From assembly GCA_017459985.1 (NCBI GenBank), contig JAFUBX010000024.1:1-40513 (forward strand): a stretch of DNA of 40,513 bases, given 5' to 3'. This document shows positions 1 through 22,272 of the stretch, piece by piece (position 1 is the stretch's first letter; each line of letters begins with the position of its first letter). Source of the stretch: Parasporobacterium sp. (lineage in GTDB: Bacteria; Bacillota; Clostridia; Lachnospirales; Lachnospiraceae). Both the position numbers and the translations under genes were made by a program. The notes beneath the pieces are model-generated. The model saw only the letters and a program-made list of their open reading frames with translations. It ran no database searches and was not told where the DNA came from.

Positions 1-735
1 AGAAGATCCTGGATACAGAAGGGCTGAGCAGTGCGGCCATCGAGATCATCAAAAAGAGTGATGCTTAGTCTGTAACCGGGGCCCAGTACACTGTGTATAC
101 CGACGCGAAGTGCACCCAAAAGTATGGCTCTGAGGTGTTGACCATTACAGCTGCAGAGAGTGCCGACGGCAACGGGATGAGCGGCAGCTCCAACATTATT
201 AAAAACGTGCCTCTGGGGACCTACTACCTGAAAGAGACCAAAGCGGGCAAGAACCTGAAGATGGATTCTACCGTCTATTCCGTCACCATCAGCGTGGATA
301 ATTACGGCACCACACAGAAGCCATCCGCAAAGTCCAAGGACGCTCCGGTGCTGGGGTCCCTGCAGATCGAGAAGATCCTGGATACAGAAGGCCTGAGCAG
401 CGCGGCCATCGAGATCATCAAAAAGAGCGATGCCTACTCTGTGGCGGGAGCCCAATATACGGTGTATACGGATGCAAAGTGCACCCGGAAGTATGGTTCC
501 GAGGTACTGACTATTACGGCTGCAGATAACACCGGTGGCAACACAGAGGGCAGCGGGATGAGCGGCAGCTCCAACGTGATCCGGAACGTGCCTTTGGGGA
601 CCTACTATCTGAAAGAGACCAAGGCGGGCAAGAACCTGAAGATGGATACCACGGTCTATTCCGTCACCATCAGCGCGGAGAATTACAGCACTACCCAGAA
701 ACCGGCAGCGAGATCCAAGGACGCTCCGGTGCTGG
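1..735 (+). repeat. Tandem duplication of a CnaB-domain coding unit (369-bp period)
   Basis: Bases from 1 realign with bases from 370 over almost the whole domain. The encoded units share the segments KYGSEVLTITAA, PLGTYYLKETKAGKNLKMD and SKDAPVLG. The second copy has a 12-bp in-frame insertion in the acidic and glycine-rich loop near 527-560. High DNA identity points to recent duplication or continuing recombination between copies. Confidence 0.85.
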
Positions 736-3700: not shown

Positions 3701-6029
3701 CGTATTTACTCCGCAGACAGAGGCTGGATCTGTGGAACTTGTTTTTACCTTCTCCGGACTCACTCTGGCCGGACGTTCTGTCGTTGCCTTTGAAGAGCTG
3801 TACCGGGAAAACAAGAGAGTGGCGGTCCATGCCGATCTTCAGGATGCGAGCCAGACGGTTGATTTTCCAGGGATCGAAACAACTCTGAAGGATTCATTTG
3901 ACGAGGGACATGATGCACTGGCAGCAAAGGAGCTCTGCCTGGCAGACACTGTTTTCTTCCATAATCTGACGGTCGGGCAGGAATACACGGTAAAAGGGAT
4001 TCTCATGGATCGGGATACTCAGGCGCCGGCCATAGATGATCAGGGCGAAGAGATCCTCTCAGAACTGGTGTTTACGGCACAGGAGCAGGAGGGTTCGGTG
4101 GAACTTGTGTTTACTTTCCCCGGAACTATTCTGGCCGGACATCATCTCGTGGCATTTGAACGATTGTACCGTGGAGAGAAGGAACTTGCCGTTCATGCAG
4201 ATCTGGAGGATGAGGCCCAGACAGTGGATCTTCCCGCCATAAGGACTTCCCTGAAGGAGACCCTCAGCGAAGAGAAGGACGCAGCCGCAGGGGAAGGGAT
4301 CACACTGACCGATACCGTACTATACCGGAATCTGATCCCAGGCAGCAGATACCATGTGTTGGGAGTTCTGATGGATCCGGAGACGGGCGATCCCGCAGTT
4401 GATGACCGGAATAAAGAAATCTCAGCACAGGCGACCTTTATTCCGGAGGAGAAGGATGGATCCGTTGCTTTGACATTTCATTTTGACGGAGCATCTCTGA
4501 CGGGGCATACTCTGGTTGCATTTGAGCGCCTTTACAGGGAGGATAAACTGCTGGCACTTCACTGCGACCTGGAGGATTTCGATCAGACTCTGTGGATTCC
4601 ATGTATCCGCACCAGTCTGAAGGATTCTGCTGATCAGCAGCCGGATGTCTTTGCCTGTGACAGGATCAAACTGACAGACCAGGTCTTTTACCGGAACCTG
4701 ATCCCGGGGAAAGAGTATCGCATCATGGGAACGCTGCATGACAAAGAAAGCGGAAAACCGGTGCGGGATGACCGGGGAAGGGAGATTCGGGCAAAGGCTG
4801 TTTTTACCCCGGAACAAAGGGATGGATCTGCAGAGATTGTATTTGAATTTTCGGGAACCACGCTGGCCGGAAGGTCGGTGGTTGCCTTTGAAGAACTGTA
4901 TCAGAACAACCGGAATGTGGCTGTCCATGCAGATCTCAGCGATCAGGACCAGACCGTTCATCTTCCCGGAATAAAGACGATACTGACAGCAGAAGGTTTG
5001 GACCTTCATTTTGCCCTGTCGGAAAAGAAGGTCGTCCTGACGGATACTGTGGTGTATCAGAACCTTCAGCCCGGATCCAAATATGTGATAAGAGGGGAAC
5101 TGAAAGAAAAAGCAACCGGGAAATCTCTGCTGTCTGCGGATGGCAAAGCGATCAGCGCTGAGGCATTTTTCACGGCGGAAGAGTCTTCCGGAACAGTCCT
5201 TCTCCGATTCGCACCGGACAGGATACCCGCGGAAGGAGTCACTCTCGTGGCATTTGAAAAACTGTTCCGCATAGAGGGGACGGTCCAGAAACAGCTTGCA
5301 GAGCACTGCGATCTGGCGGATCCTTCCCAGACCGTATATATTCCTGCGATCCGCACAGTACTAAGCGCGGAAAAGGGACGGAAGACTCTGTCCGTGACGC
5401 GGAATCAGATCGTATTATATGACAATGTTGCTTATGAGAATCTGTGCCCGGATACGGAGTATTCCATCCGGGGAACGCTGGTCGACCCTGCCACAGGTGA
5501 GATCCTTCAGGATGCTTCCGGGGCGGAGGTGACCGCGGAAGAAACGTTTATCGCCAAAAAGGCATCCGGGTCAGTCAGGATTGCATTTACATTTTCCGCT
5601 CCGGAAACACTTCCCATGCGGATTGTAGCATTTGAAAAACTGCTTCGGGACGGAACCGTAATCGCGCTACATGAGGATCTCGAAGATGCGGACCAGACCG
5701 TACATGTTTCGCAGCCGGAACCGCCTACGGAGCCTCCGACGGAGCCTCCAACGGAGCCTCCGACACAGCCCCCGACGCAGCCGCCGACGCAACCGGAGAC
5801 GCCGACTCCTGCTCCGCAGCCGCCTGCCAATCCGGAACCCCCGAAACCACAGACTCCGGAGCCTCCGTCAAAAAGGCCGTTTGCAGAGGATGCACCGAAG
5901 ACCGGGGATTTGAATCGTCCAGGTCTGTACCTCGGTCTTGGAATTGCGGCGGTGATTTTGATTGCCGGAACGATTCTTGTTCTTATGAGAAGAGGTCGTC
6001 ACAGCGGCAGATCCGGACGGATCCGGTGA
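1..6029 (+). CDS. VaFE-repeat, CnaB-repeat sortase-anchored surface protein (5'-truncated, amber-interrupted)
   Basis: This is the 3' part of a very large cell-wall adhesin; the gene begins before the window. The frame is open from base 3 but has a TAG at 66-68. The uninterrupted remainder encodes about 1,985 residues. In order it holds CnaB/SpaA-like domains (two near-identical ones up to about 735, then more divergent ones to about 1950), then ten VaFE repeats (about 2000-5715), each of about 120-130 residues. Each repeat has an L-x-D-T-V-type first strand, a VAFE or VVFE core and a D-x-x-QTV end, the pattern of Thr-Gln ester-bond domains. A Pro-Thr-Glu/Gln-rich stretch (about 5716-5870) probably spans the wall. 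The C-terminus has a sorting signal, A-P-K-T-G-D at 5892-5909, then about 21 hydrophobic residues and an Arg-rich tail. No signal peptide is visible. A GTG at 93 is only the first possible start after the stop and lies inside a CnaB domain, so it is not a credible natural start. Family assignment is confident; whether the gene is functional is not. Confidence 0.85.
66..68 (+). other. In-frame amber (TAG) codon in the surface-protein gene
   Basis: The second copy of this domain, 369 bp downstream, reads Asp-Ala-Tyr-Ser-Val at this point, with a TAC codon. The first copy reads Asp-Ala-TAG-Ser-Val. The flanking frame is intact on both sides, so a single C-to-G change in the third codon position explains it. 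TAG is used as an ordinary stop by other genes here, for example the acetyltransferase ending at 24150 and the reductase ending at 26327, so reassignment is unlikely. It could be a real nonsense mutation or a sequencing error. Confidence 0.85.
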
Positions 6030-8375: not shown

Positions 8376-9134
8376 TTATTCTGTGATTGCCCAGACTCTG
8401 GCCGGAAGTCCGGTGGCCTGTTCGATCCTCGGGTAGGAAACAATGATCACAGCGCCTGCGGGCTGTACCTTGTCCAGATTCCGGAGCGCTTCTACCTGGA
8501 GCTTCTCCTGATCCAGAACATAACGTTCGCAGATCAGGTCGCCGGCTTCGGCGGCTACGGTAGAGGCGTCCGTATCCAGCGTCTCATGACCGTTTGCTGC
8601 AGCGTTGCGGGTCTCATAAATGTATTTAAGAGCTTCCAGAGACCAGCCCGGGAAATTCTCAGATCCGTCTTCTCCGGTTCCGGAGAGAGCATCCATATCC
8701 GGCCAGTTCTTATACCAGTCGGTGCGCAGTGCTACAAAAGCGCCGTCCGGGATCGGGCCGTACTGAGCCTCATAGTTCTTGATATCCTCTACGGTGACTG
8801 CATAGTGGACATCCTTCTTCACCTGCTCGGTAATATCAATGACAACCAGCGGGAAGATCAGGTCATGGACATCGTACTGTTCCGACATCTGCTTGCCCTG
8901 GATAAAATGTCCGGGGAAATCAATATGGGTTCCGAACTGTCCCGGGAACTTGAAGGACTGGATCAGGCATTCAAGCTCCGGTTTTCCCCAGTCCCAGAGG
9001 GTCTTCGATAATTCCACGGATCCGGCCGGAATCCCGGACCAGTAGGGACTGTCGTTGTTCAGCGGGTGGGAAAGCTCTACCCACTGATACTTTCTGGCTG
9101 CTTCCAGCGCATTCCAAAGTTTATATTCTGCCAT
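8376..9134 (-). CDS. Cyclase-family metal-dependent hydrolase (kynurenine formamidase/isatin hydrolase superfamily)
   Basis: The product is 252 residues, the family's usual size. The metal-binding signature GTHIDFPGH lies at 68-76 with H70, D72 and H76, and GHETLDTD in the second half is typical of one clade. Members hydrolyse N-formylkynurenine, isatin, or related cyclic or acyl amides with a divalent metal; the exact substrate cannot be read from the sequence. GGAGGATTCTC sets the start. It is the last gene of the liv transporter operon, 12 bp after the binding-protein gene, so its substrate is probably what the transporter brings in. The tryptophan operon divergent to this unit lacks anthranilate synthase, which makes an anthranilate-yielding reaction attractive. 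That link is inference only. Confidence 0.85.
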   Translation of the reverse strand: MAEYKLWNALEAARKYQWVELSHPLNNDSPYWSGIPAGSVELSKTLWDWGKPELECLIQSFKFPGQFGTHIDFPGHFIQGKQMSEQYDVHDLIFPLVVIDITEQVKKDVHYAVTVEDIKNYEAQYGPIPDGAFVALRTDWYKNWPDMDALSGTGEDGSENFPGWSLEALKYIYETRNAAANGHETLDTDASTVAAEAGDLICERYVLDQEKLQVEALRNLDKVQPAGAVIIVSYPRIEQATGLPARVWAITE

Positions 9135-9146
9135 GAGAATCCTCCT

Positions 9147-10334
9147 TTATTCACCCTCTGTGAAGGTCGGTACAATGGCGGTGATGTTCAGGCTTTCGCC
9201 GTCCTTGAATTCGTTAATGAACACGGTCTTGTTCGGAACATTGCCATCTGCATAGCTGATAGTACCTGTCAGTCCTTCGAAGTCTGTGACCTGTGCGATC
9301 GCATTGCGGATGGACTGGGGAGAATAATCCCCGTTTGCATAGTTTTCAATGGCGTATTTCAGCAAATAGCCTGCATCGTAAGCCAGTGCAGCAAATGCAT
9401 TCTGCGGATCCTCATTGTATTTTGCCTGATAAGCAGCGATGAAGTCATCGGTAATCGGATCTGCATAATTGACATGGGTGCTGAAGTAGGTGTTGTTGGA
9501 AGCGGCACCTGCAATCTGAGCAACGGAAAGGTCATCCAGTCCGTCACCGGACAGGCAGATGACATCCAGACCTGCTTCGCGGATCTGCTTCAGCTGGATC
9601 GGGCCTTCATCGGTAAAGCATCCCAGGAAGATGGCATCCGGCTGTTCATCCAGTGCCAGGATCTGGTTGATGATGGGGGAGAAGTCTGTACTGGTGTTGT
9701 CGTCGTATTCACTTCCGAATTCGCCCTCGGATACGATGGTGCCGCCCAGAGCTGTGAAATGGGACTGGAAGTATTTGGACAGAGCCAGTGTGTATTCGTC
9801 AGTATTGTTGGTGATTACGTATGCGGTCCGGACACCCAGTTCGTTGTAAGCATATTCGGACATGGCAGCGGCCTGAATGTTGTCACCGTAAGGAACCAGG
9901 AATGCGGTATCGCCGACACGCTCCTGGGTATAGGGCAGTGTGGAAACGGTTGCGATCGTCGGAACGCCGTACTCCTGCGCGATAGTTCCGCAGGCAATAT
10001 CGGTGTTGGGGTCGCCCATGCCGATCAGGACATCACATCCGTCCTGTTCGATCATACGTGTGGTCAGAGCGGTTGCAGTGGCCAGATCAGAGGTCGTATC
10101 ATAGGTTACGTATTCCACCTGGATTCCGTCGATTCCGCCTGCGGCATTGATTTCATCCAATGCCAGCTCCAGGCCTTTGGAACCTGCGACATCATAGCTG
10201 TCGAACCAGCCGGTCTGTGCCCACAGTCCGCCGACTTTGATGGAATTTTCCCCTGCGAAGGCAATTCCTGCTGTTAACGTTGCTGCCAGGGCACTGATGA
10301 GTACAGTGCTGAGAATTTTGTGTTTTGCTTTCAT
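9147..10334 (-). CDS. livK: Branched-chain-amino-acid-type ABC transporter, substrate-binding protein
   Basis: The product is 395 residues with a signal peptide (basic MKAKHK, hydrophobic core, cleavage near AFA-GE at about 27-28) and a type I periplasmic-binding fold beginning IKVGGLWAQTGW. The family binds Leu/Ile/Val but also amides, urea, aromatic acids and short peptides, so the ligand is open. There is no lipobox cysteine, which is odd for a Gram-positive binding protein that must stay on the cell surface. The start overlaps the stop of livM as ATGA, with GGAG upstream, so the two are translationally coupled. It is followed closely by the cyclase-family hydrolase. Confidence 0.9.
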   Translation of the reverse strand: MKAKHKILSTVLISALAATLTAGIAFAGENSIKVGGLWAQTGWFDSYDVAGSKGLELALDEINAAGGIDGIQVEYVTYDTTSDLATATALTTRMIEQDGCDVLIGMGDPNTDIACGTIAQEYGVPTIATVSTLPYTQERVGDTAFLVPYGDNIQAAAMSEYAYNELGVRTAYVITNNTDEYTLALSKYFQSHFTALGGTIVSEGEFGSEYDDNTSTDFSPIINQILALDEQPDAIFLGCFTDEGPIQLKQIREAGLDVICLSGDGLDDLSVAQIAGAASNNTYFSTHVNYADPITDDFIAAYQAKYNEDPQNAFAALAYDAGYLLKYAIENYANGDYSPQSIRNAIAQVTDFEGLTGTISYADGNVPNKTVFINEFKDGESLNITAIVPTFTEGE

Positions 10335-11464
10335 TGTGGTTCTCCTTTGTTTTTTTCAGATCTATTCTTTCGCGTAAAAGCATGTGCGAAATCAAGGTAA
10401 GTCTGTTTGCGGAACAGGCCGGTATAGGTGGAACTGCTGAACAACGTTCCGACCAGATATTCGCTGCTCCCGGTGATGCCCTCTTTCCGGAAAATGATCA
10501 TGATGATGAACAGCACGCTGGTAACAATGTTGGTCAGTCCGTTTATCTGCGGAACATGGATCCCGAAGATCGTGAAACCGGTGCTGAAATTTGCCAGCAG
10601 CTGGGGAAGGAAGGTCAGTACAGCGGCTCCGGGGATCGCTCCGGACAGACTGGCCATACCGCCCAGAACCGACATTTCCAGAATCGTGAAGGTCTCGTCA
10701 AAGTAAAACAGTGACGGGGCGATCGTCCTCTGCAGGTGGGCCCACAGGCATCCGCCCACAGCGGCAAAGAAGGCGCTGATCATGAAGGACATCAGACGGA
10801 TGGTGCGGTGATTGATGCCCAGGGATGCGGCGGCGTCCTCATCTTCCCGGAGCGCGATCATGGACCGCCCATAGGCGCTGGTGCGGAACCGGTATAAAAT
10901 AAACAGAGAGATCAGCGCAGTAATGATTACCACGGGGAGTGTGGAGTATTTGGTCATACCGCTGATGCCCCGGGAACCGTTGGTGAGGCTGGACGCATTG
11001 TCCAGCACACTCTTGATCACGATGACCATTCCCAGGGTGATCACCGCCAGGTAATGCCCCTTGGCCCGGAGGATCGCAAATCCGATGATCCCCGCAATGA
11101 TCATGGTCACACAGGCTGCAACAATCAGGGCTGCCCAGAAGGGGAGCTGGAACTGCTTCAGCCATTGGGGCATTTTGGAAACCATAGTGTCCTTGGTGGA
11201 CTCAGAGAGCGTCAGGATTGATCCGATGTAAGCGCCCAGGGCCATGAAGCCTGCCTGTCCCAATGAAAAGATACCGGTGATCCCGTTGGTCAGATTCAGG
11301 CTTGCAGCCAGGATCAGATTGATAAAGAACAGGATCAGGATGGATTCATAATAATTGCCGGCCTTAAAATGGACCAAAAGGATGATCGCCAGCGGAACAA
11401 GGATCACCATGAGAAACCGGAACAGGGAATTGTCTGTGAATCTTTGTGTCTTCATCATTGTCAA
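10331..11464 (-). CDS. livM: Branched-chain-amino-acid-type ABC transporter permease LivM
   Basis: The product is 377 residues, strongly hydrophobic with about ten membrane segments. It has the LivM-type motif IFSLGQAGFMALGAYIG and a cytoplasmic coupling loop (ALREDEDAAASLGI) that contacts the ATPase subunits. It forms the membrane channel with LivH. The start overlaps the end of livH by 4 bp and its end overlaps livK by 4 bp (both ATGA), typical of one coupled operon. The last 40 or so residues are polar and charged and longer than in the E. coli protein core. Confidence 0.92.
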   Translation of the reverse strand: MTMMKTQRFTDNSLFRFLMVILVPLAIILLVHFKAGNYYESILILFFINLILAASLNLTNGITGIFSLGQAGFMALGAYIGSILTLSESTKDTMVSKMPQWLKQFQLPFWAALIVAACVTMIIAGIIGFAILRAKGHYLAVITLGMVIVIKSVLDNASSLTNGSRGISGMTKYSTLPVVIITALISLFILYRFRTSAYGRSMIALREDEDAAASLGINHRTIRLMSFMISAFFAAVGGCLWAHLQRTIAPSLFYFDETFTILEMSVLGGMASLSGAIPGAAVLTFLPQLLANFSTGFTIFGIHVPQINGLTNIVTSVLFIIMIIFRKEGITGSSEYLVGTLFSSSTYTGLFRKQTYLDFAHAFTRKNRSEKNKGEPQ

Positions 11465-12348
11465 CTCCTTTTCCAGTTATTGCTGCCGAACAGTCCGTTG
11501 GGCCGGACCAGAAGCACCAGGATCAGTACCAGGAACGTAAAGGTGGTCTGGAAGGACGCGGTGCCCTGGGGCAGATATCCGCTGAAGAACACCTCCAGGA
11601 CAGCCATAATGTAGCCGCCGGCAACCGCTCCCGTGAGACTGCCCAGACCGCCCAGTACGGCTGCGATAAACGCCTTGACGCCCAGCATAAATCCCATATC
11701 GTTGCTGAAGGATGTATATTTGCCGGAGTAGAGGATCCCGGCAAATGCTGCCAGCACGGAGCCGATAATAAAGGCAACGGTGATGACCTTGTTCTTGTCG
11801 ATACCCACCAGATCCGAAGCCTCCGGATTGTCGGAGACTGCCCGCATGGCTTTGCCGATCCGGGTCTTCTGCAGGATCAGCACCACGACGATGGTGAGGA
11901 TCACGGTGGAAGCAAAGGTGACCACATCAATGACCGACACCGTAGCTCCGTAGATTTTGAAGGTCCGGGAGAAAAACTCGGGGATGATCAGAGCCTTGCT
12001 GCTGGAATTGAAGATCGCCTGGCAGACCGCCTCCAAAAAAATGGAGACAGCCAGAGACGTGATAATCTGGGTGGATTCGCCGGCTTTGCGGATCGGACGG
12101 TAGGCAACCCGTTCGATCAGGACACCGAACAGAACCGTGATCAGGATGGACAGGATGACTGCCAGGCCGAAGGACAGGCCGGCGTTCAGCAAAGACCACA
12201 AAGCAAAAGTGGCGATCATCAGCAGTTCCCCATGGGCGAAATTGATCATTCCCATGATGCTGTATACGATGGAATAGCCAATGGCAACCAGAGCATAGAT
12301 GCTGCCCAGCTTTATGGCACTGATTAATTGTGCAACGAAGAAACCCAT
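11461..12348 (-). CDS. livH: Branched-chain-amino-acid-type ABC transporter permease LivH
   Basis: The product is 295 residues with about eight membrane helices. The LivH signature INFAHGELLMIATF lies near residues 36-49 and the coupling-loop motif MRAVSDNPEASDLVGI is in the middle. GGGAGG sits about 9 bp before the start. The gene begins 25 bp inside the 3' end of livF, in another frame, and overlaps livM by 4 bp. It pairs with LivM as the transmembrane domains. Confidence 0.92.
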   Translation of the reverse strand: MGFFVAQLISAIKLGSIYALVAIGYSIVYSIMGMINFAHGELLMIATFALWSLLNAGLSFGLAVILSILITVLFGVLIERVAYRPIRKAGESTQIITSLAVSIFLEAVCQAIFNSSSKALIIPEFFSRTFKIYGATVSVIDVVTFASTVILTIVVVLILQKTRIGKAMRAVSDNPEASDLVGIDKNKVITVAFIIGSVLAAFAGILYSGKYTSFSNDMGFMLGVKAFIAAVLGGLGSLTGAVAGGYIMAVLEVFFSGYLPQGTASFQTTFTFLVLILVLLVRPNGLFGSNNWKRS

Positions 12349-13058
12349 GTTTCCTTACCTCCCAGATATATCCTCCGGATATCCTCATTTTCCGCCACTT
12401 CCTGACCGGTTCCGGAAAGGACGATCTCCCCGCTTTCCATAATATAAGCCCGGTCACAGATCTGGAGGGCGTCCCAGGCATTCTGCTCCACCAGAAGGAT
12501 CGTCATCCCATTGTTCCGCAGTGTCTGAATGACTTCAAATACCTGCTCCACAATGATCGGAGCCAGTCCCAGGGAAGGCTCATCCAGAAGAAGCAGCCGG
12601 GATCCGGTGACCCGGGCGCGGCCGATGGCCAGCATCTGCTGCTCGCCTCCGGAAAGGGAACCGGCCTTCTGATGGATCCGCTCCTTCAGGATCGGAAAGA
12701 GATCAAACACATAATCCATCCGTTCCTGCCGGATCTTCTTGTTCCTGGTCAGATATCCGCCAAGTTCCAGATTCTCGCCGACGCTGAGTTTGCTGAAGAC
12801 CTGCCGCCCCTCCGGAACATGGACGATCCCCGCGGATACGATCTGAGCCGGACTGGCCCCGATCAGTTCCTTTCCTTCGTAGAGGATTGATCCGGATTTG
12901 GCTTTGATCAGGCCGGAAATCGTTCTCATGGTGGAGGTCTTGCCGGCTCCGTTGGATCCGATCAGGGAGACGATCTCGCCCTCCCGGACTTCAAAGGAAA
13001 TGTTCCGGACGGCATTGATTTTTTTATAACTGATACTGAGATTCGTGACTTTTAACAT
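12324..13058 (-). CDS. livF: Branched-chain-amino-acid-type ABC transporter ATPase LivF
   Basis: The product is 244 residues. Walker A is GSNGAGKTS (about 34-42), the signature motif LSGGEQQMLAIGRA is intact, and Walker B is LLLLDEPSLGLAP with the catalytic Glu. LivF-type proteins energise the LivHM channel together with LivG. A GGAG about 12 bp ahead of the ATG overlaps the livG stop region; only 8 bp separate the two genes. Confidence 0.93.
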   Translation of the reverse strand: MLKVTNLSISYKKINAVRNISFEVREGEIVSLIGSNGAGKTSTMRTISGLIKAKSGSILYEGKELIGASPAQIVSAGIVHVPEGRQVFSKLSVGENLELGGYLTRNKKIRQERMDYVFDLFPILKERIHQKAGSLSGGEQQMLAIGRARVTGSRLLLLDEPSLGLAPIIVEQVFEVIQTLRNNGMTILLVEQNAWDALQICDRAYIMESGEIVLSGTGQEVAENEDIRRIYLGGKETWVSSLHN

Positions 13059-13066
13059 AGTGTTTC

Positions 13067-13870
13067 TTATTCTCCGGCGGTCTGCTTCCCGATGCGGTGG
13101 GCCGAGCCGCCCAGATATACGGAGATGACTTCCTCGGATTCATAGATCTGCCGGGGAGTCCCTTCCGCGATCATCCGTCCCGATGCCATAACATAGATAT
13201 ATTCGCAAAGATTCATAACGACCTTCATATCATGCTCAATGAGGAGAATCGTCATCTCCGGATGAACCTGATGGATCTTCCGGATGTCTTCGACCAGCTG
13301 CAGACTTTCCTGAGGATTCATACCGGCTGCCGGCTCATCCAGCAGAAGGAGCTTCGGACGGATGGCGAGACATCTGGCGATCTCAAGCCGCCGCTGAAAC
13401 GCGTAGGCGAGACTGTCCGCCTGATAGGAAGCATACTGTTCGATCCCCATGGTCTGAAGGGCCTGCAGGGACCGTGCGGCAAATTCCTTTTCTTCCCGCC
13501 GGTACCTGGGCATATACGTCAGCATTTCAAACAGGGTATAGGTCCGGGTGATCTGGCTGGCGGTGATCACATTATCCAGAACGGTCTGATCCTCAAACAG
13601 CCGGAGGTTCTGGAAGGTTCGGGCGATCCCGGCCCTGGCCCGCTGCGCGGCGGGAACATGGGTGATCGGCTTGTCCTCATAAAGGATCTGTCCCTCCGTC
13701 GGGAACAGATTCCCGGAGATCATATTGATCACGGTGCTTTTTCCGGCGCCGTTGGTCCCGATCAGCCCGTAGATCTTCCCTGTTTCCAGATCCATATTGA
13801 TATGGTCAACAGCAAGAACACCCTTAAATTGTTGTGTCAGCTCCTGCACCCGGAGCAATACTTCTGACAT
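13067..13870 (-). CDS. livG: Branched-chain-amino-acid-type ABC transporter ATPase LivG
   Basis: The product is 267 residues. Walker A is GTNGAGKST, Walker B is LLLLDEPAAGMN, and the LivG-specific helix YTLFEMLTYMPRYRREE is in the middle. The signature region reads SLAYAFQRRLEIAR, where family members usually have a PYGQQ-like segment, so the glycine of the ABC signature is replaced. This may be tolerated in one of two ATPase subunits. It is the first gene of the operon; AGAGGAG lies just before the ATG and a promoter is predicted about 65 bp upstream. Confidence 0.92.
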   Translation of the reverse strand: MSEVLLRVQELTQQFKGVLAVDHINMDLETGKIYGLIGTNGAGKSTVINMISGNLFPTEGQILYEDKPITHVPAAQRARAGIARTFQNLRLFEDQTVLDNVITASQITRTYTLFEMLTYMPRYRREEKEFAARSLQALQTMGIEQYASYQADSLAYAFQRRLEIARCLAIRPKLLLLDEPAAGMNPQESLQLVEDIRKIHQVHPEMTILLIEHDMKVVMNLCEYIYVMASGRMIAEGTPRQIYESEEVISVYLGGSAHRIGKQTAGE

Positions 13871-13934
13871 ATGACTCCTCTTTCCGGAAACCTGTAAAAA
13901 AAACAGATTTTTTGAATATAAGCTTAATGTGACT

Positions 13935-13964
13935 AATATAAAAGAAATAAGGCATTTTTACCAA
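13935..13964 (-). promoter_or_regulatory. Predicted promoter of the liv-cyclase operon
   Basis: On the minus strand TTGGTA (13964-13959) and TATATT (13940-13935) are 18 bp apart, giving a transcript leader of roughly 60 nt before livG. The leader is too short for a T-box. The stretch 13871-14050 is AT-rich and holds no gene. Confidence 0.5.
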
Positions 13965-14056
13965 TACTATTTACAGATATTTGGTTATAGTTTTTTCCAA
14001 TAACTAAGATGCGGATTTATAATTAACGCACGGATTACGGGATGAAAAAGTTTAAC

Positions 14057-14074
14057 ACACTGCCACAGCAGTGT
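14057..14074. promoter_or_regulatory. Inverted repeat between divergent liv and trp promoters
   Basis: ACACTGC and GCAGTGT are separated by CACA, a perfect 7-bp inverted repeat about 15 bp upstream of the predicted trp -35 box. It could be an operator shared by the divergent units, or a hairpin with no regulatory role. Confidence 0.35.
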
Positions 14075-14088
14075 ACTAAAAAATATAC

Positions 14089-14117
14089 TTGCGCAATCGA
14101 TTCAGCTGTGATAGACT
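14089..14117 (+). promoter_or_regulatory. Predicted trp operon promoter
   Basis: TTGCGC at 14089-14094 and TAGACT at 14112-14117 are 17 bp apart, placing the start of transcription near 14124, just ahead of T-box stem I. A second -10-like TATACT at 14084-14089 is an alternative. Confidence 0.5.
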
Positions 14118-14123
14118 GTGCGA

Positions 14124-14388
14124 AACCGTTGAGGGAGAGTGAGTAGATCCTGTTAAGGTTCGTAAGTGAGAGCCGCGGGCGGAGTGATCGCGGCATGAAG
14201 GGCAGGATTGAATGGACTTCCGAGGGCGATCAGAACGGCGTACAGCCCAGTATGTGAGACGGAGATGGCGCTCCGTGATCAAAGGCCGGCGTATGATGGT
14301 ACGCATCGAGAGGGTACAATAGTACCAAGCCGGGTGGCACCGCAGGATTATATCCTGTCCCAGCATTTTTTCTGGGACAGGTTTTTTT
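14124..14388 (+). promoter_or_regulatory. T-box leader specific for tRNA-Trp
   Basis: This leader couples trp operon transcription to uncharged tRNA-Trp. The T-box sequence GGGTGGCACCGC is at 14332-14343. Stem I pairs ATCCTG (14147-14152) with CAGGAT (14203-14208); an AGTAG loop-E-type strand lies on the 5' side. On the 3' side GAA-TGG-A puts the specifier at 14213-14215, UGG for tryptophan. The apical stem pairs GCCGCG with CGCGGC. The variable base after UGG in the T-box bulge is C, which would pair with G73, the discriminator of bacterial tRNA-Trp. The terminator at 14354-14388 competes with the antiterminator. Confidence 0.93.
14354..14388 (+). terminator. T-box-controlled terminator ahead of trpD
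   Basis: CCTGTCCCAG and CTGGGACAGG form a perfect 10-bp stem with an 8-nt loop and are followed by seven T residues. Read-through needs uncharged tRNA-Trp to stabilise the antiterminator. The stretch from here to the trpD start (14389-14513) holds only an 8-bp hairpin, TGCTGCAG/CTGCAGCA, at 14426-14448. Confidence 0.93.
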
Positions 14389-14513
14389 ATTTGCTGAAAA
14401 TTCCTGATCCCATTCCTATCACATCTGCTGCAGCCATTTTCTGCAGCAAACGTTACACACAACCGCCGAAGGCGCAAAACAGCCGGAAGGCACAGGCAGG
14501 AAAGGAGCCAGAC

Positions 14514-15539
14514 ATGTATAAGGATATTTTAGGCAAACTGACAAACGGAACGGATCTGAACGAGCAGGAAGTTCTGGAAATCATCTCGGACATCCGGGAG
14601 GACAAGCTCACCGAAGGACAGATTTCGGGATTTCTGGTTGCACTGGTGATGAAGGGGACGACCCTGGAGGAGACCGCATACATTGCCAAAGCCATGCGGG
14701 AGAATTGCATTCCGATCCGTCCCCGTGTGGAAAGCGAACTGATGGATACCTGCGGAACCGGAGGCGGGCTTTCTACATATAACATTTCTACGGCCACAGC
14801 GTTGATCTCGGCAGCAGCGGGGATCCCGGTGGCAAAACACGGCAGCCGGTCCATTTCCAGTCTGTCCGGCAGCGCGGATGTTCTGGAGGCTCTCGGTGTC
14901 AATATTGAACTGACGCCGGAGCAGGCGGCCCAGCTGATCGAAGAAATCAATATCGCCTTTATTTATGCCCCATTGTTCCATCCGGTGATGGGAAAGGTCC
15001 TGCAGCCGGAGGCCGCTCTGGGGATCAAAACCATTTTCTATACCATTATCGGACCTTTGATCAATCCGGCCTTTGCTCCAAGACATCTGCTGGGAGTTTA
15101 TAAACCGGAACTTCTGGAGCAGGTGGCAACCGTCGCCCGGGAGATCGGGTATACCAGAGCCATGTTTGTGCATGGACTGGACGGACTGGATGAGATCTCT
15201 CTGCTGGGAAAGACAAAGATCATTGAATTGAAAGACGGGGAATTCCAAAGCTATGAGATCGCTCCGGAAGATTTCGGATTATCCCGCTGTACACTGGAAG
15301 AGATCCGGACCGGTACTCCGCAGGAGAATGCGGCGACGATCCGGGGAGTATTTAACGGAAGTATCCGGGACGCCCGCAGGGATGCGGTGCTTCTCAATGC
15401 GGCCGGGGCGCTGGTCGTAGGAGACAAGGCGGCAGATTTTGCGGACGGCATCCGCAAAGTGGCTGCGATCATCGATGAAGGCCGGGCGGAAGAGACGTTG
15501 AATCAGCTGATCGAAAGATCCGGAGCATTTCGGAAATGA
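14514..15539 (+). CDS. trpD: Anthranilate phosphoribosyltransferase
   Basis: The enzyme joins anthranilate to PRPP, the second committed step to tryptophan. The product is 341 residues, close to the family norm. The anthranilate/PRPP loop CGTGGG starts at residue 80 and KHGSRSISSLSGSADVLE follows near residue 110. The frame stays open upstream into the T-box leader, but the ATG at 14514 is chosen because AAAGGAG lies 7 bp before it and the family N-terminus begins here. It is the first gene of the operon, directly behind the T-box; no trpE or trpG precedes it. Its stop overlaps the next start as ATGA. Confidence 0.95.
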   Translation: MYKDILGKLTNGTDLNEQEVLEIISDIREDKLTEGQISGFLVALVMKGTTLEETAYIAKAMRENCIPIRPRVESELMDTCGTGGGLSTYNISTATALISAAAGIPVAKHGSRSISSLSGSADVLEALGVNIELTPEQAAQLIEEINIAFIYAPLFHPVMGKVLQPEAALGIKTIFYTIIGPLINPAFAPRHLLGVYKPELLEQVATVAREIGYTRAMFVHGLDGLDEISLLGKTKIIELKDGEFQSYEIAPEDFGLSRCTLEEIRTGTPQENAATIRGVFNGSIRDARRDAVLLNAAGALVVGDKAADFADGIRKVAAIIDEGRAEETLNQLIERSGAFRK

Positions 15540-16945
15540 AATTTCTTGAAGCGTTAAACAATAGAAAAGCACAGGGCATGGTCCCTCTGATACCGGATAT
15601 CAAATGTTTTTCCCCAAAGGACGGAGAGCTGCTGAAGGGCAGAGACCCTGCGGAGCTGGCGATGCAGCTGGTGAAGGCAGGGGCTCCCGCTCTCTCCGTT
15701 GTGACAGAACAGAAGGAATTTCACGGAAGCATGGAGATTCTTTCTGCGGTCTGCAGGAGTGTATCTGTCCCTGTTCTCCGGAAGGATTTCATTACCTGTG
15801 AGAAGGATCTGGAGGAAACCCGCAGTGCCGGGGCACAGGCCATCCTTCTGATGGTATCCTGTCTCGGAGAAGAACGGCTGACGCAGCTTTATCATGCGGC
15901 TCGGCGCCTGGGCCTGACTCCATTCGTAGAGACTCACACCCTCCGGGAGCTGGAATTTGCCAAAGGATTGAAAGCTCCGCTGATCGGGATCAATAACCGG
16001 GATATCCTGGTACTGGAACGGGACGACGGAACAGTGACGCATGCCGGCAGACTGCTTCGGGAAGCGAAGGAAGAGGGAAGCTTCTATGTGGTGGAAAGCG
16101 CGCTGAAGGACGGAGATGACGTGCGCAGGGCGCTGAAGAGCGGCGCGGATGGAGTTCTCGTGGGGACCGCGATCCTGAATGCGCCGGATCCGGTCCGCCG
16201 GTACCGGACGATGACCCGCCGTTGCGCAGTGAAGATCTGCGGACTGATGAGCAGGGCGGATGTGGACGCCTGCCTGGTTCAGGATACGGATTTTCATGGA
16301 TTTGTGGTGGAATATCCTGTGCCGGTGCGATGGAATCTGGATAGAAATAAAGCCGGAGAATTGCTGTCTTATCTGAAAAAAACAGATGGGTCCGCAAAAA
16401 CCTGCATCGTGACCGGAGGGGAGCCGGACCGGATCCTGGCTCTTGCCCGTGCATTAAGACCGGAGTATCTGCAGTTGCATTACCGGGAATCTCTGGAAGA
16501 TACGGCAAGGATCGCTGAATGTCTGGATTCGGAAGGTATTCGCGTCATCCGCAGTATTCCCCAGGATCCTCAGGCGAGACAGGAAATGTTCGGAACCGGA
16601 TCCCTGGAGCAGATCGTACAGAAACTGTCGGACACGCAGGTATCCGGCGTCCTTCTGGACAGCCGGGAAGCATCCAATGCGGCCTTTGGAGGCGGAAGCC
16701 TTCTGCAGACACTGGAAGGCGGGGAAGAATCCGCGGCGCAGATCAGGCGGATCCGGAAACTTCTGGCAGATTCGGAAAAGCTTCTGATCGTCGGAGGAGG
16801 GATCCTTCCGGAGACAGCGGGTGAAGTGATCAGCAAACTGCAGCCGGACTGGATCGATGTCATGACAGGAGCAGAAGATTCTGCCGGACGCAAATCACAG
16901 TTACGGATCGCTCAGCTGACAGAAGCGGTAAGACAGAAATTATAA
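15536..16945 (+). CDS. trpCF: Fused indole-3-glycerol-phosphate synthase / phosphoribosylanthranilate isomerase
   Basis: The product is 469 residues. Residues 1 to about 228 are a TrpC (beta/alpha) barrel with the motifs DIKCFSPK, LRKDFI and GINNRD. Residues from about 229 are a TrpF-like barrel starting VKICGL, with LLDS and a C-terminal VGGGILPE phosphate loop. They catalyse the isomerase and ring-closing steps between TrpD and TrpA. The order is the same as in the E. coli fusion. Several residues are unusual: the catalytic Glu of the usual E-x-K-x-x-SPS motif is Asp21, the N-terminal helix is short, and the TrpF part is divergent around its usual SPR motif (VRWNL). Gene order and complete length argue that it works. 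The start overlaps trpD by 4 bp. Confidence 0.9.
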   Translation: MKFLEALNNRKAQGMVPLIPDIKCFSPKDGELLKGRDPAELAMQLVKAGAPALSVVTEQKEFHGSMEILSAVCRSVSVPVLRKDFITCEKDLEETRSAGAQAILLMVSCLGEERLTQLYHAARRLGLTPFVETHTLRELEFAKGLKAPLIGINNRDILVLERDDGTVTHAGRLLREAKEEGSFYVVESALKDGDDVRRALKSGADGVLVGTAILNAPDPVRRYRTMTRRCAVKICGLMSRADVDACLVQDTDFHGFVVEYPVPVRWNLDRNKAGELLSYLKKTDGSAKTCIVTGGEPDRILALARALRPEYLQLHYRESLEDTARIAECLDSEGIRVIRSIPQDPQARQEMFGTGSLEQIVQKLSDTQVSGVLLDSREASNAAFGGGSLLQTLEGGEESAAQIRRIRKLLADSEKLLIVGGGILPETAGEVISKLQPDWIDVMTGAEDSAGRKSQLRIAQLTEAVRQKL

Positions 16946-16957
16946 AAGGAGCGGCAT

Positions 16958-18148
16958 ATGACCAATCAAAAAGGACGGTTCGGGATCCATGGCGGCCAGT
17001 ATATTCCGGAAACGCTGATGAATGCGGTGATCGAGCTGGAACAGGCCTACAATTATTATAAGGAAGATCCTTCCTTTCAGCAGGAACTGACAGAGCTGTT
17101 CAATGAGTACGCAGGGCGGCCGAGCCGGCTGTACAAAGCCGAAAAGATGACGAGGGATCTGGGCGGTGCGAAGATCTATCTGAAGCGGGAGGACCTGAAT
17201 CATACCGGAGCCCATAAGATCAACAATGTTCTTGGTCAGGCCCTGCTGGCGAAAAAAATGGGCAAGACCCGTCTGATTGCGGAGACCGGGGCGGGGCAGC
17301 ACGGAGTGGCGACTGCGACGGCGGCAGCGCTCCTTGGCATGGAGTGTGTGGTATTCATGGGAGAAGAGGATACCAGACGGCAGGCCCTGAATGTCTACCG
17401 GATGAAACTGTTAGGGTCTGAGGTTATTCCGGTCCGCACCGGGACAGCCACGCTGAAGGATGCGGTTTCTGAAGCCATGAGAGAATGGACTTCCCGGATC
17501 AGCGATACCCATTACTGTCTGGGATCGGTCATGGGACCGCACCCGTTTCCCACGATCGTAAGGGATTTTCAGGCGGTGATCTCCAGGGAGATCAGATCCC
17601 AGATCCTGGAGAAGGAAGGAAGGCTTCCGGACGCCGTGATCGCCTGTGTCGGAGGCGGCAGCAACGCCATCGGTTCCTTTTATCATTTTATCGATGATCC
17701 GCAGGTGCAGCTGATCGGCTGTGAAGCGGCAGGCCGGGGAATTGACAGTTTCGAGACCGCAGCGACCATTAACACCGGCCGTGTAGGGATCTTTCACGGA
17801 ATGAAAAGTTATTTCTGTCAGGATGCCTATGGGCAGATCGCTCCGGTGTATTCGATCTCGGCGGGACTGGATTATCCCGGAATCGGACCGGAGCATGCAT
17901 GGCTTCATGATATCGGCCGGGCTGTCTACGTAGGGATCACGGATGAAGAGGCGGTACAGGCGTTTGAATATCTGGCCCGCACAGAAGGGATCATTCCGGC
18001 GATCGAATCTGCCCATGCGGTTGCCTATGCGAGGAAGCTGGCGCCAACCATGGATAAGGATCAGTTGATCGTGATTACGATCTCCGGCCGGGGAGATAAG
18101 GACTGCGCCGCCATTGCCCGGTATCGGGGAGAAGACATCAGTGAATGA
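16958..18148 (+). CDS. trpB: Tryptophan synthase beta chain
   Basis: The product makes tryptophan from indole and serine and is 396 residues, the standard length. The PLP lysine is K87 in HTGAHKINN, the same position as in E. coli. The [10 protein letters not shown] loop and the GGGSNAIG phosphate-binding loop are intact. AAAGGAG 8 bp before the ATG sets the start. It would form the alpha-2-beta-2 complex with the TrpA encoded 16 bp downstream. Confidence 0.97.
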
Positions 18149-18164
18149 ACAAGGAGAATACCAG

Positions 18165-18983
18165 ATGAGAACGATAGCATATGCTTTTCGGAATGGAAAA
18201 GCGTTTATTCCTTTTATTACCTGCGGGGATCCGGATCTTTCGGTGACTGCACAGCTCATTCAGACAATGGCGGACAACGGGGCCGACCTGATCGAACTCG
18301 GCATTCCCTTCTCGGACCCGACAGCGGAAGGACCGGTGATCCAGGCGGCCAATCTCCGGGCGCTGACAGCCGGAACGACAACGGATAAGATTTTTGAAAT
18401 GGTGCGAAAGGTCCGCAGAAGGGTTCTTGTCCCTCTGGTCTTTATGACCTATGCCAATGTGGTCTTCTCTTATGGAGCAGAGCGGTTTCTTTCCACCAGC
18501 AAAGAGATCGGCATGGACGGTCTGATCCTCCCGGATCTTCCTTATGAAGAAAAGGAGGAATTTCTTCCCTTGTGCAGAAAATACGGAATCAGTCTGATCA
18601 GCCTGATTGCGCCGACCTCGGAAAACCGGATCGCCATGATTGCCCGGGAGGCGGAAGGATTTCTGTATCTTGTCTCCAGTCTCGGGGTAACCGGTACCAG
18701 GAGTGAGATCACCACCGATCTTCCGTCCATTGTCCGGGTCGTGAGGGAACATACCGATCTTCCCTGCGCGGTGGGGTTCGGGATCTCGACTCCGGAACAG
18801 GCAGTTGCCATGGCGCAGGTTTCTGATGGCGCGATCGTCGGTTCCGCAATCGTAAAACTGATCGCAAAATACGGAAAAGACAGCATCGCGCCGGTAGGCG
18901 CATTTGTCCGGGCCATGAAGGATGCAGTTAAATCCGGTGTTTCTTCCGGTAATCCTTCGGCAGGACCTTATAATACTCTTTGA
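18165..18983 (+). CDS. trpA: Tryptophan synthase alpha chain
   Basis: The product cleaves indole-3-glycerol phosphate to indole and is 272 residues. The ATG at 18165 is chosen because AAGGAG lies 8 bp before it; an in-frame ATG at 18114 falls inside trpB. Catalytic Glu is E44 in ELGIPFSD. The usual second catalytic residue, Asp60 in E. coli, is Glu here (E55 in PTAEGP), a conservative change. The TrpB contact and phosphate loops (GVTGTR, GFGIS) are present. The last 56 bp overlap the 3' end of the convergent regulator gene. No terminator was found after it. Confidence 0.95.
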   Translation: MRTIAYAFRNGKAFIPFITCGDPDLSVTAQLIQTMADNGADLIELGIPFSDPTAEGPVIQAANLRALTAGTTTDKIFEMVRKVRRRVLVPLVFMTYANVVFSYGAERFLSTSKEIGMDGLILPDLPYEEKEEFLPLCRKYGISLISLIAPTSENRIAMIAREAEGFLYLVSSLGVTGTRSEITTDLPSIVRVVREHTDLPCAVGFGISTPEQAVAMAQVSDGAIVGSAIVKLIAKYGKDSIAPVGAFVRAMKDAVKSGVSSGNPSAGPYNTL

Positions 18984-19892: not shown

Positions 19893-20111
19893 GTGAAAAA
19901 AACATACAATATCGAGGTCGACTGCGCAAACTGTGCCAATTTGATGGAGGAAGCTTCAAATAAGGTAAACGGAGTTGTGAAGGCGACGGTTAATTTCATG
20001 GCTCTGCGGATGAGCGTGGAATTTGAGGAAGGCGCAGACACCAAAGCAGTCATGAAGGAAGTGCTGAAGGCCTGCCGGAAAGCGGAGCCGGACTGTGAGA
20101 TCGAACTGTGA
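19893..20111 (+). CDS. Stand-alone heavy-metal-associated (HMA) domain protein
   Basis: The product is 72 residues, one ferredoxin-like HMA fold with the metal motif DCANCAN near residues 10-16 and a second half ending in a Cys (about residue 68). It probably hands metal to the P1B ATPase encoded 15 bp downstream, whose own N-terminus lacks this domain. AAAGGGG lies about 10 bp ahead of the ATG. It is the first gene after the regulated promoter. The CANCAN form instead of the copper-type MxCxxC fits a Zn/Cd/Pb rather than copper pathway, though this is inference. Confidence 0.88.
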   Translation: MKKTYNIEVDCANCANLMEEASNKVNGVVKATVNFMALRMSVEFEEGADTKAVMKEVLKACRKAEPDCEIEL

Positions 20112-20126
20112 TCCGGGGGAAATGTT

Positions 20127-21998
20127 ATGAAGAAGAAACAGAAGATCATCCTGATCCGAATCCTCATCACTGCCGCCATGCTGATCCTCCTCAATCTGAT
20201 CCCGGTGACCGGGATCCTGAGACTTGCGCTGTTTCTGGCGGTTTATCTGGTGATCGGATATGATATCCTGAAAAAGGCGGGACGGGGGATCCTGAACCGG
20301 AAAGTTTTCGACGAGAATTTTCTGATGGCAGTCGCCACGATCGGAGCCTTCGCCCTGGCGATTTATGACAGAAGCGGTGATTATAACGAGGCAATTGCCG
20401 TGATGTTGTTCTATCAGATCGGAGAACTGTTTCAGAGTCTGGCGGTACAGAAGAGCCGCAGAAATATCAGTGAACTGATGGATCTGCGTCCTGATTACGC
20501 CAATCTGGAGACGGACGGAACACTGGTAAAGACGGATCCGGAGGAAGTCGCTGTGGGAAGTACGATCGTGGTCCAGCCGGGAGAACGGATTCCCATTGAC
20601 GGAGTGATCCTGGAAGGAACTTCCGCCCTCAACACCAGTGCCCTGACGGGAGAGAGTCTTCCCCGGGATGTTCATGAAGGAATGGAGGCTGTCAGCGGTT
20701 GTATTAATCTGACGGGTGTGCTGAAAATCCGGACAACGAAGGAATTCGGAGAATCCACTGTCTCCAGAATCCTGGAACTGGTACAGGATTCCGGTTCCCG
20801 CAAATCCCGCTCCGAGCAGTTTATCTCCCGGTTCGCCAGAGTCTACACGCCGGCGGTCTGTATCGGAGCCCTGGCACTGGCAGTACTGCCTTCGTTGATC
20901 CGTCTGATCGCAGGCCTGCCGGCACAATGGGATGTCTGGATTTACCGGGCTCTGACCTTCCTGGTAATCAGCTGCCCCTGCGCTCTGGTGATCAGTATTC
21001 CGCTGAGTTTCTTTGCAGGCATTGGCGGTGCCGGCCGGGAAGGGATCCTGGTAAAAGGATCCAATTATCTGGAGATGCTGTCGAAGGTCAAAACGGTGGT
21101 ATTCGATAAAACCGGGACCCTGACGAAGGGCGTCTTTCAGGTGACCAATATCCATCATGGCACGCTTCCGGATGCGCAGCTGATCGAGTACGCGGCGCTG
21201 GCGGAATGCGCGTCCTCCCATCCGGTCAGCCTCAGTCTGAAGCGGGCCTACGGGAAGGAGCCGGACCGGACCAGAGTGGACCGGATCCGGGAGTACAGCG
21301 GCAAAGGCGTTGTGGCTGTCGTGGACGGGAAGGAGATCGCCGCAGGAAATTTCCGCCTGATGGAAGATCTGGGAATCGCCTACCAGGAGTGTCACAGCCA
21401 GGGTACGATCGTCCATTTGTCGATTGACCGGGAGTATGCGGGGCATATCGTGATCTCGGACGTGGTAAAACCGGATTCTGCCAAGGCAATTAAGGAACTT
21501 CGGGAGCTGGGGATACACAAGATTGTCATGCTGACCGGGGATAATCTGAAGACGGCAGAGCAGGTTGCCCGGGAACTGAGGGTGGATCAGGTATACAGTG
21601 ATCTGCTGCCTGCCGATAAGGTTGAGAAAATGGAGCAGCTGATCGGAGAAGGGACGCTGGCCTTCGCAGGAGACGGAATCAATGATGCGCCGGTTCTGAC
21701 CCGGGCGGATATCGGAATCGCCATGGGGGCCATGGGCAGCGATGCCGCAATCGAAGCGGCGGATGTGGTTCTGATGGATGATGATCCCGTCAAGCTCCCC
21801 AGGGCGATCCGCATTTCCCGCAAGTGCATGCGGATCGTATATCAGAATATCGTCTTTGCGCTGCTGATCAAAGTCCTTTGCCTGGCTCTGAGTGCCTTCG
21901 GAGTTGCGGATATGTGGTATGCGATCTTCGCGGATGTGGGCGTCATGGTGCTGGCTGTCCTGAATGCCATCCGTGCACTCCGGGTGCGGGGGCTTTGA
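20127..21998 (+). CDS. P1B-2 type heavy-metal (Zn/Cd/Pb) translocating ATPase
   Basis: The product is 623 residues. The order is two early membrane segments, the actuator domain with LTGES, the CPC metal-site helix (SCPCALVIS, near residue 282), the phosphorylation motif DKTGTLTKG (Asp near 326), the SSHPVS nucleotide-site His-Pro, GDGINDAPVL, and two last membrane segments. The Lys in helix 7 (LLIKVL) and the Asp in helix 8 (FADVGV) are the P1B-2 hallmarks of Zn, Cd or Pb exporters. The usual N-terminal HMA domain is absent and is supplied by the small gene upstream. A dispersed repeat copy begins 2 bp after the stop codon. A zntA/cadA-like role is likely, but the metal cannot be fixed from sequence. 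Confidence 0.93.
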   Translation: MKKKQKIILIRILITAAMLILLNLIPVTGILRLALFLAVYLVIGYDILKKAGRGILNRKVFDENFLMAVATIGAFALAIYDRSGDYNEAIAVMLFYQIGELFQSLAVQKSRRNISELMDLRPDYANLETDGTLVKTDPEEVAVGSTIVVQPGERIPIDGVILEGTSALNTSALTGESLPRDVHEGMEAVSGCINLTGVLKIRTTKEFGESTVSRILELVQDSGSRKSRSEQFISRFARVYTPAVCIGALALAVLPSLIRLIAGLPAQWDVWIYRALTFLVISCPCALVISIPLSFFAGIGGAGREGILVKGSNYLEMLSKVKTVVFDKTGTLTKGVFQVTNIHHGTLPDAQLIEYAALAECASSHPVSLSLKRAYGKEPDRTRVDRIREYSGKGVVAVVDGKEIAAGNFRLMEDLGIAYQECHSQGTIVHLSIDREYAGHIVISDVVKPDSAKAIKELRELGIHKIVMLTGDNLKTAEQVARELRVDQVYSDLLPADKVEKMEQLIGEGTLAFAGDGINDAPVLTRADIGIAMGAMGSDAAIEAADVVLMDDDPVKLPRAIRISRKCMRIVYQNIVFALLIKVLCLALSAFGVADMWYAIFADVGVMVLAVLNAIRALRVRGL

Positions 21999-21999
21999 T

Positions 22000-22149
22000 G
22001 TACGGTATAAGCATCGTTTCCATACAAACACAAACTCACTTTTCCATCGATGCCTTACAGCAGCTAACATAAAAAATAGAAAAAATAACTGAATAAGAAA
22101 CAGAACTAATGAAGAAGACCTTGCGTCGGACGACTCCGACTCAGGGTCT
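22000..22149 (+). repeat. Solo copy of the dispersed hairpin repeat (type A)
   Basis: This matches the three A units at 27193, 27744 and 28261. It has a first stem-loop (GCATCG paired with CGATGC), a variable loop, an AT-rich link containing TAACTGAATAA, then the second hairpin AAGACC-...-GTCGGA-...-TCCGAC-...-GGGTCT. The T-tract seen in the other copies is replaced by A residues, so it would not terminate here. It starts 2 bp after the P1B ATPase gene. The remaining stretch to 22270 shows nothing recognisable. Confidence 0.8.
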
Positions 22150-22272
22150 AAAAAAAGAAACGAGTAGCCCGCCTGAGCCATAAGACTGTACGGTAAAAAC
22201 CCATTTCTCCTGGCATTATAATAAAATGTTTCGAACCGTTTGTCTAGATTTATATCAGACGTCGTTCAACGC

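Follow-up and report, generated by a model that had tools for sequence, protein, structure and literature searches.

The window analysed here is a 40,513-nucleotide stretch (positions 1 to 40,513 of contig JAFUBX010000024.1) from a Parasporobacterium species of the Lachnospiraceae, and it carries an operon for the tryptophan enzymes TrpD to TrpA that lacks the genes of anthranilate synthase. The residues that are changed and kept in its enzymes lead us to favour, with some reserve, the interpretation that this operon is a second kind of tryptophan route, induced by starvation, which would start from an arylamine other than anthranilate. The TrpD of the operon belongs to a divergent lineage that we mark with a star, TrpD*, together with its partners TrpC* and TrpF*; it differs from the YbiB-type proteins that the literature calls TrpD2. 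In the pathway that is taught for microbes, chorismate is converted to anthranilate, anthranilate to indole-3-glycerol phosphate (IGP) and IGP to tryptophan, and a genome that lacks trpE is counted as an auxotroph or as a scavenger of anthranilate.

The operon lies on the plus strand. Its T-box leader at 14120..14365 matches RF00230 with 68 bits (E 2.3e-14 in a search of 1.1 kb, under the Rfam gathering score of 93), the specifier loop reads GAATGG with the tryptophan codon TGG at 14213-14215, and a terminator-like inverted repeat with a run of T was read by eye at about 14353-14387. The genes that follow are trpD* (14514-15539; TIGR01245, 373 bits, cut-off 199), a trpC*F* fusion of an IGP synthase (IGPS)-like and a phosphoribosylanthranilate isomerase-like part (15536-16945; PF00218 176 bits, PF00697 36.7 bits, all listed NCBIfam TrpC and TrpF models being under cut-off), an ordinary trpB for the tryptophan synthase beta chain (16958-18148; TIGR00263, 643 bits, cut-off 392) and trpA for the alpha chain (about 18141-18983; TIGR00262, 281 bits, cut-off 102), for which a GTG at 18141 is the probable start while the listed open reading frame opens at 18114. 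Neither trpE nor trpG adjoins the operon. The original prediction, made from the window alone, had described just such a T-box-controlled trpD-trpCF-trpB-trpA operon without trpE and trpG, and the layout and the UGG T-box bear it out.

It had also held that TrpD needs anthranilate from outside. As a genome-wide probe for TrpE we used PF00425, the family of TrpE, PabB and MenF. The search gave no match in the window assembly (94.75% complete, 4.98% contaminated), nor in any of 14 genomes of the genus, that assembly included, and was positive in 14/14 control genomes. There is no anthranilate synthase in the whole genome by this search, and the first substrate must therefore come from elsewhere. 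That part of the claim stands; the part that names anthranilate does not fare as well, as the star enzymes probably act on something other than anthranilate, given a Glu in place of an Arg in TrpD* and the loss of Arg36 in TrpF*.

When 250 genomes of the family were searched with the window TrpD, three relatives at 77–83% identity were followed by nothing above 47%. With a strict threshold the TrpD* lineage was found in 4 of 397 genomes of the family, in 6 of 391 genomes of the class (five new, besides that of the window) and in 3 of 33 genomes in the order of genome G725 (two new), while the viral collection contained none. In total TrpD* is present in 11 genomes from six families: G000, which holds the window, G265, G521, G725, G606, G586, G818, G819, G602, G166 and G227. 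A tree of 65 TrpD rows places the 11 TrpD* sequences in one clade on a long branch (support 100/99, and 100% of 200 bootstrap trees), with the caveat, raised by a program warning, that one long ordinary row (L049) meets the TrpD* branch.

The order T-box-trpD*-trpC*F*-trpB-trpA is found in the window and in G265, and G521 has a clearly decayed version in which trpD* is truncated at its start and trpC* is a piece only. The operon reads T-box-trpB-trpA-trpD*-trpC*-trpF* in G725, G606, G586, G818 and G819, trpF-trpB-trpA-(URO-D family gene)-trpD*-trpC* in G602, and T-box-trpD*-trpC*F*-psuG-like in G166 and G227, where trpBA is absent from the locus. All three enzymes of the segment from anthranilate to IGP are encoded together in 10/11 star loci, the decayed G521 being the remaining one, and in 8/11 the star genes lie directly beside trpB and trpA. 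Neither trpE nor trpG was found by tblastn in nine of the star stretches (L174, L175, L186-L190, L195, L196). A T-box precedes 9/11 star operons, six of them over the gathering score, and its specifier is TGG in 9/9, within the GAATGG that is also read in the window.

Two of the accompanying genes deserve description. The gene between trpA and trpD* in G602 (L188:3026-4141) belongs to the URO-D/MtaA-like family; it was considered as a maker of the substrate and is a single case. The PsuG-like genes of G166 and G227 (L174:11373-12296 and L175:13724-14656) lie directly downstream of trpC*F* in operons that have a tryptophan T-box. Their products keep the catalytic Lys, a residue that is mutated to Ala in the solved chains, and have a loop that reads ESAGTFEA or ETAGTFEG where E. 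coli PsuG has ESTIISHG. A search for this protein gave matches in 2/8 genomes, both of them the operon copies. The PsuG-like protein was considered as a general partner of the star enzymes; its gene is in the operon of 2/11 star genomes, and there was no match to it in G000 or G265.

Star and ordinary enzymes differ in the substrate site of TrpD. Its columns were compared between the 11 star rows and 54 ordinary rows, of which 52 are different (G141 and G142 are repeats); a cobalamin-cluster type (G000:C126, G006 and G012) was kept out of the ordinary set, and the partial or broken rows L052 and L053 were unused. Residue numbers here and below were mapped by alignment, in part to the usual Sulfolobus and Thermotoga numbering. 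In 11/11 TrpD* the Asp of the GTGGD motif is lost, Ser replaces Asn111 (S111 in the window), Glu replaces Arg166 (E166), an extra Tyr (Y176) is joined by Thr for Asn177 (T177), and Thr or Ser replaces Gly266 (T266 in the window), whereas the ordinary Asp, Asn, Arg, Asn and Gly are each present in 54/54 ordinary rows. The Lys of the KHG motif (K108) and the Asp-Glu pair (D226, E227), which we take to form the side of the site that binds phosphoribosyl pyrophosphate (PRPP) and Mg, are kept in 4/4 and in 8/8 star rows in two alignments. According to a study of the anthranilate phosphoribosyltransferase (AnPRT) of M. tuberculosis (PMC9835598), the carboxylate of anthranilate is held by R193 and N138, the counterparts of Arg166 and Asn111, and substitutions of residues printed as N139 and R193 lower catalysis and raise Km.

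A further TrpD paralogue, the cobalamin-cluster type mentioned above, ends a cobalamin gene cluster in genomes that have no PF00425 (L054:9513-10532 on G000:C126, L055:9400-10419 in G006 and L056:5909-6714 in G012). The cluster of G000 contains the families CobU, CobT, CbiA, an aminotransferase, CbiB and CbiJ, and those of G006 and G012 were judged by the sizes of their open reading frames. These paralogues keep the Arg and the GTGGD Asp in 3/3, carry Asp, Asn and Asn in the column of Asn111 and, in 2/3, Gln in place of His109, and might serve a cobamide-related base.

The partners of TrpD* are altered as well. For these counts G521 was left out, and G602 was counted in TrpF with its own TrpF, a separate gene that is ordinary in other respects. 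Arg36 is replaced by Trp in 9/9 TrpF* (W266 in the window) and by Gln in the TrpF of G602, compared with Arg in 33/33 ordinary sequences, while the acid-base pair Cys7 and Asp126 is kept in 10/10, as is the Glu184 position. In the simulations of PMC9088769, Arg36 forms a pair with Glu184, which it is described as shielding from the phosphoribosylanthranilate (PRA) carboxylate. With Arg36 gone and Glu184 kept, we would expect a carboxylate at this place to be disfavoured. In TrpC* the Glu51 position is occupied by Asp in 10/10 (D21 in the window; Glu in 44/44 ordinary sequences), and the N-terminus is short and lacks the lid segment, with 17–24 residues before the Glu51 position against an ordinary median of 55; the starts were chosen by hand in G725, G606, G586 and G819, where longer open reading frames overlapping trpD* are possible. 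Lys110, Glu159, Asn180 and Lys53 are kept in 10/10. The roles of the lid and of the catalytic residues of TrpC are those given in PMC7681013.

TrpB and TrpA of the window look ordinary and intact. The former is 84% identical to the trpB product of an ordinary, trpEG-bearing locus (L176) and keeps the HKINN lysine motif, and the latter aligns with solved TrpA chains and keeps the IELGIPFSDP segment. If they are as ordinary as they look, the star enzymes should deliver unsubstituted IGP. Since catalytic residues are kept and those facing the ortho-carboxylate are lost, the expected substrate is an aniline that is unsubstituted at the ortho position or carries there a neutral or cationic leaving group.

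The star genes are maintained by selection. The ratio of nonsynonymous to synonymous substitution rates (dN/dS) of trpD* is 0.050, 0.053 and 0.067 in three pairs, the last being the window and G265, for which synonymous change is near saturation; trpD* is under purifying selection. TrpC* and TrpF* evolve faster than TrpD*, with values of 0.15 for trpC* and 0.19 for trpF* between G818 and G819 and 0.25 for trpCF* between the window and G265. Decay of the window operon was considered and rejected on these values from the G265 pair and on its intact reading frames.

The route that we propose would run as follows. When charged tRNA-Trp is low, the T-box would permit production of TrpD*, TrpC*F*, TrpB and TrpA. 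TrpD* would add phosphoribose to the amino group of an arylamine in which the ortho-carboxylate is absent or the ortho group is neutral or positively charged, TrpF* would carry out the Amadori rearrangement, and TrpC* would close the indole ring with loss of a proton or another ortho group in place of CO2. The ordinary TrpA and TrpB would then convert IGP to tryptophan. The successive action of the star enzymes, PRPP as the donor and a substrate without a carboxylate are our inferences. Aniline is the simplest candidate for that substrate, though a tentative one, and kynurenine-like ortho-acyl anilines are the next, at a level that we would call doubtful.

The same steps have been carried out in vitro. 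As reported in PMC7681013, an AnPRT of Acinetobacter accepts aniline, IGPS converts the decarboxylated substrate to IGP at a rate about 1000 times lower than with its native substrate, and AnPRT, a mutant HisA and IGPS acting on aniline make up a decarboxylated route that yields IGP without loss of CO2. That route depends on side activities of enzymes that are ordinary or engineered, at about 1/1000 of the rate, whereas the star genes form a natural, conserved operon in which the carboxylate positions are changed.

PF00425 was tested in 9/11 star genomes, G818 and G819 being outside that count, and is absent from five (G000, G265, G521, G725 and G602), including G265, whose operon has the layout of the window. 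It is present in the other four (G166, G227, G606 and G586), each of which also has an ordinary TrpD elsewhere that keeps the Arg and every other ordinary residue (4/4). That a single cell has D-C-F sets of both kinds speaks for two substrates. In a search of 61 relatives PF00425 was present in 27 genomes and absent from 34, and as only G000 among those 34 has a star TrpD, a genome that has lost TrpE need not have the star set. It is improbable that the star genes simply replace the ordinary ones, and some star bacteria may have only this route while others have it beside the classical one.

One alternative is that rebuilt star enzymes salvage anthranilate, either anthranilate from neighbouring cells that is bound in another way or a conjugate of it. 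Outside anthranilate would fit the five genomes without TrpE, and the D, C and F enzymes stay together in all star loci except the decayed one, TrpD* scores over the TrpD cut-off, and TrpC* keeps Lys53 and mostly the Arg of loop 6. It is harder to square with the alteration of carboxylate-holding residues in every TrpD*, with the parallel loss of TrpF Arg36 even in the TrpF of G602, which looks to be of ordinary lineage, and with the four genomes that have trpE and an ordinary TrpD, in which there would be no need for a further path from anthranilate. We regard anthranilate salvage as rather unlikely.

The other alternative is suggested by G166 and G227, in which the star genes are followed by a PsuG-like C-glycosidase with a changed loop instead of trpBA, and in which TrpE and an ordinary TrpD are present elsewhere. 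The star enzymes could make a C- or N-ribosylated aromatic compound that is no precursor of tryptophan, with the T-box merely coupling its production to tryptophan status. Set against this are the trpB and trpA genes that adjoin the star genes in most loci and the ordinary look of both in the window. In G606 and G586, moreover, the trpE-G-D-C-F loci that were read hold no trpBA; the trpBA pair that was found lies in the star operon. We judge it unlikely that the star product lies outside tryptophan synthesis.

The non-anthranilate route has its own difficulties, and the following observations all weigh against it. No T-box was found at G602 or, in a search at the gathering score only, at G521, and a search of the window at that score missed the T-box there because its score is lower. 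The window TrpD* is far over the TrpD cut-off, and as the GTGGD change is on the donor side, PRPP is a donor that we can only infer. TrpC* keeps Lys53, and its loop-6 residue, which can touch both carboxylate and phosphate, is Arg in 7/10 and Lys in 3/10. Presence of the star set does not track absence of TrpE (5/9 star genomes are without PF00425, compared with 34/61), and some genomes may be incomplete, G166 being 86% and G818 89% complete. We know of no natural source of aniline for these bacteria. In the simulations of the TrpF study, Arg36 has little direct contact with PRA (PMC9088769).

Compared with an ordinary trp operon (trpEGDCFBA), the star operon of the window shares the D-C-F-B-A order, the tryptophan T-box, homologous enzymes and ordinary TrpB and TrpA, but it lacks trpEG and has altered substrate-site residues in TrpD*, TrpC* and TrpF*, and the star set can occur in the same genome as the ordinary one. 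The YbiB-type TrpD paralogues, or nucleoside phosphorylases II, are of the same protein family as TrpD; the window TrpD*, however, scores 57 bits with the YbiB model against 373 with the TrpD model, and TrpD* is found in trp operons. Some Chlamydia have trp genes without trpEG, together with kynU, and recycle kynurenine, their TrpD acting on anthranilate. The run from trpD to trpA without anthranilate synthase is common to both systems, but the anthranilate site is altered in TrpD*, and kynureninase (TIGR01814) was over the cut-off in 0/13 genomes, with one match of 21.5 bits under it in G166 and no match in G000. Supply by kynureninase was rejected on this count, and the kynurenine route that the original prediction had allowed for, with a kynureninase elsewhere in the genome, thereby lost its footing.

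Divergent to the trp operon, on the minus strand, is an importer of the branched-chain/amide-type ABC class, livGFHMK (9147..13870; PF13458, 2x PF02653, 2x PF00005), consisting of livG (13067-13870), livF (12324-13058), livH (11461-12348), livM (10331-11464) and livK (9147-10334), all under the cut-offs of the listed NCBIfam liv and urt models. It ends, as had been described from the window, in a Cyclase-family hydrolase (8376-9134; PF04199, 125 bits). No NCBIfam model matches the hydrolase, which carries the Cyclase-family motif GTHxDxPxH as GTHIDFPGH. Its best solved chains are isatin hydrolase 5nmp (1e-25) and the cyclase-family 8f9x, with kynurenine formamidase at 1e-5, and its C-terminal part has CE where 5nmp has CH, the His of which we take to be catalytic.

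These genes had been proposed to import and cut formyl-anthranilate, formyl-kynurenine or an isatin-type compound and so to feed TrpD. The divergent neighbourhood in the window and the solved relatives of the hydrolase, isatin hydrolases and more weakly kynurenine formamidase, speak for this. We compared the neighbours of the hydrolase at 80 loci, the best of at least 567 relatives in public genomes (72–87% identity, many loci cut by contig ends), which include many from Lachnospiraceae, five from Faecalibacterium and one from Treponemataceae. All five liv genes adjoin the hydrolase at 4 of these 80 loci, which also counts in favour, but trp genes adjoin it at 0/80. The cassette is likewise at 0/10 other star operons within 12–20 kb, where livF and livG matches are generic ABC ATPases only. 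The sister genome G006 has the same liv-hydrolase cassette, 77–88% identical, with no trp genes within the 19 kb read. Together with the missing kynureninase, the CE in place of CH and the loss from TrpD* of the Arg for the anthranilate carboxylate, this makes such a supply highly improbable; we rejected the cassette as part of the star pathway, and importer and hydrolase are probably bystanders of the trp operon. The hydrolase itself is strikingly conserved in many gut bacteria and has no constant neighbour among the loci compared.

Other features of the window can be noted briefly. Contig C41 of the same assembly (6.5 kb) equals window positions 11448-17958 with one mismatch and is either the same DNA assembled twice or a genuine second copy. 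A 1978-residue protein encoded at 93-6029 has ten matches to T-Q ester-bond domains as well as SpaA-type domains and resembles a long surface stalk, and downstream of trpA, on the minus strand, 19956-22181 encodes a 741-residue protein without a Pfam match.

A literature search found no report of trpE-less operons of this kind, of anthranilate-independent synthesis, of phosphoribosylaniline or of psuG with trp genes, and nothing on Arg36 in connection with the anthranilate carboxylate; this is weak evidence, as most subscription journals lay outside its coverage. The broader form of the proposal, on which we find the case evenly balanced, is that bacteria of six or more families within the class of the window possess a second natural tryptophan pathway with dedicated TrpD*, TrpC* and TrpF* under tryptophan T-box control, starting from a non-anthranilate arylamine such as aniline, or one with a neutral or cationic ortho group, for example kynurenine. 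If this is true, calling these organisms auxotrophs or scavengers would be wrong for part of these anaerobes, a natural enzyme would close the indole ring without decarboxylation, and a new metabolite, made or exchanged by these bacteria, would remain to be found. Some gut-associated bacteria would then make their tryptophan from a different aromatic amine.

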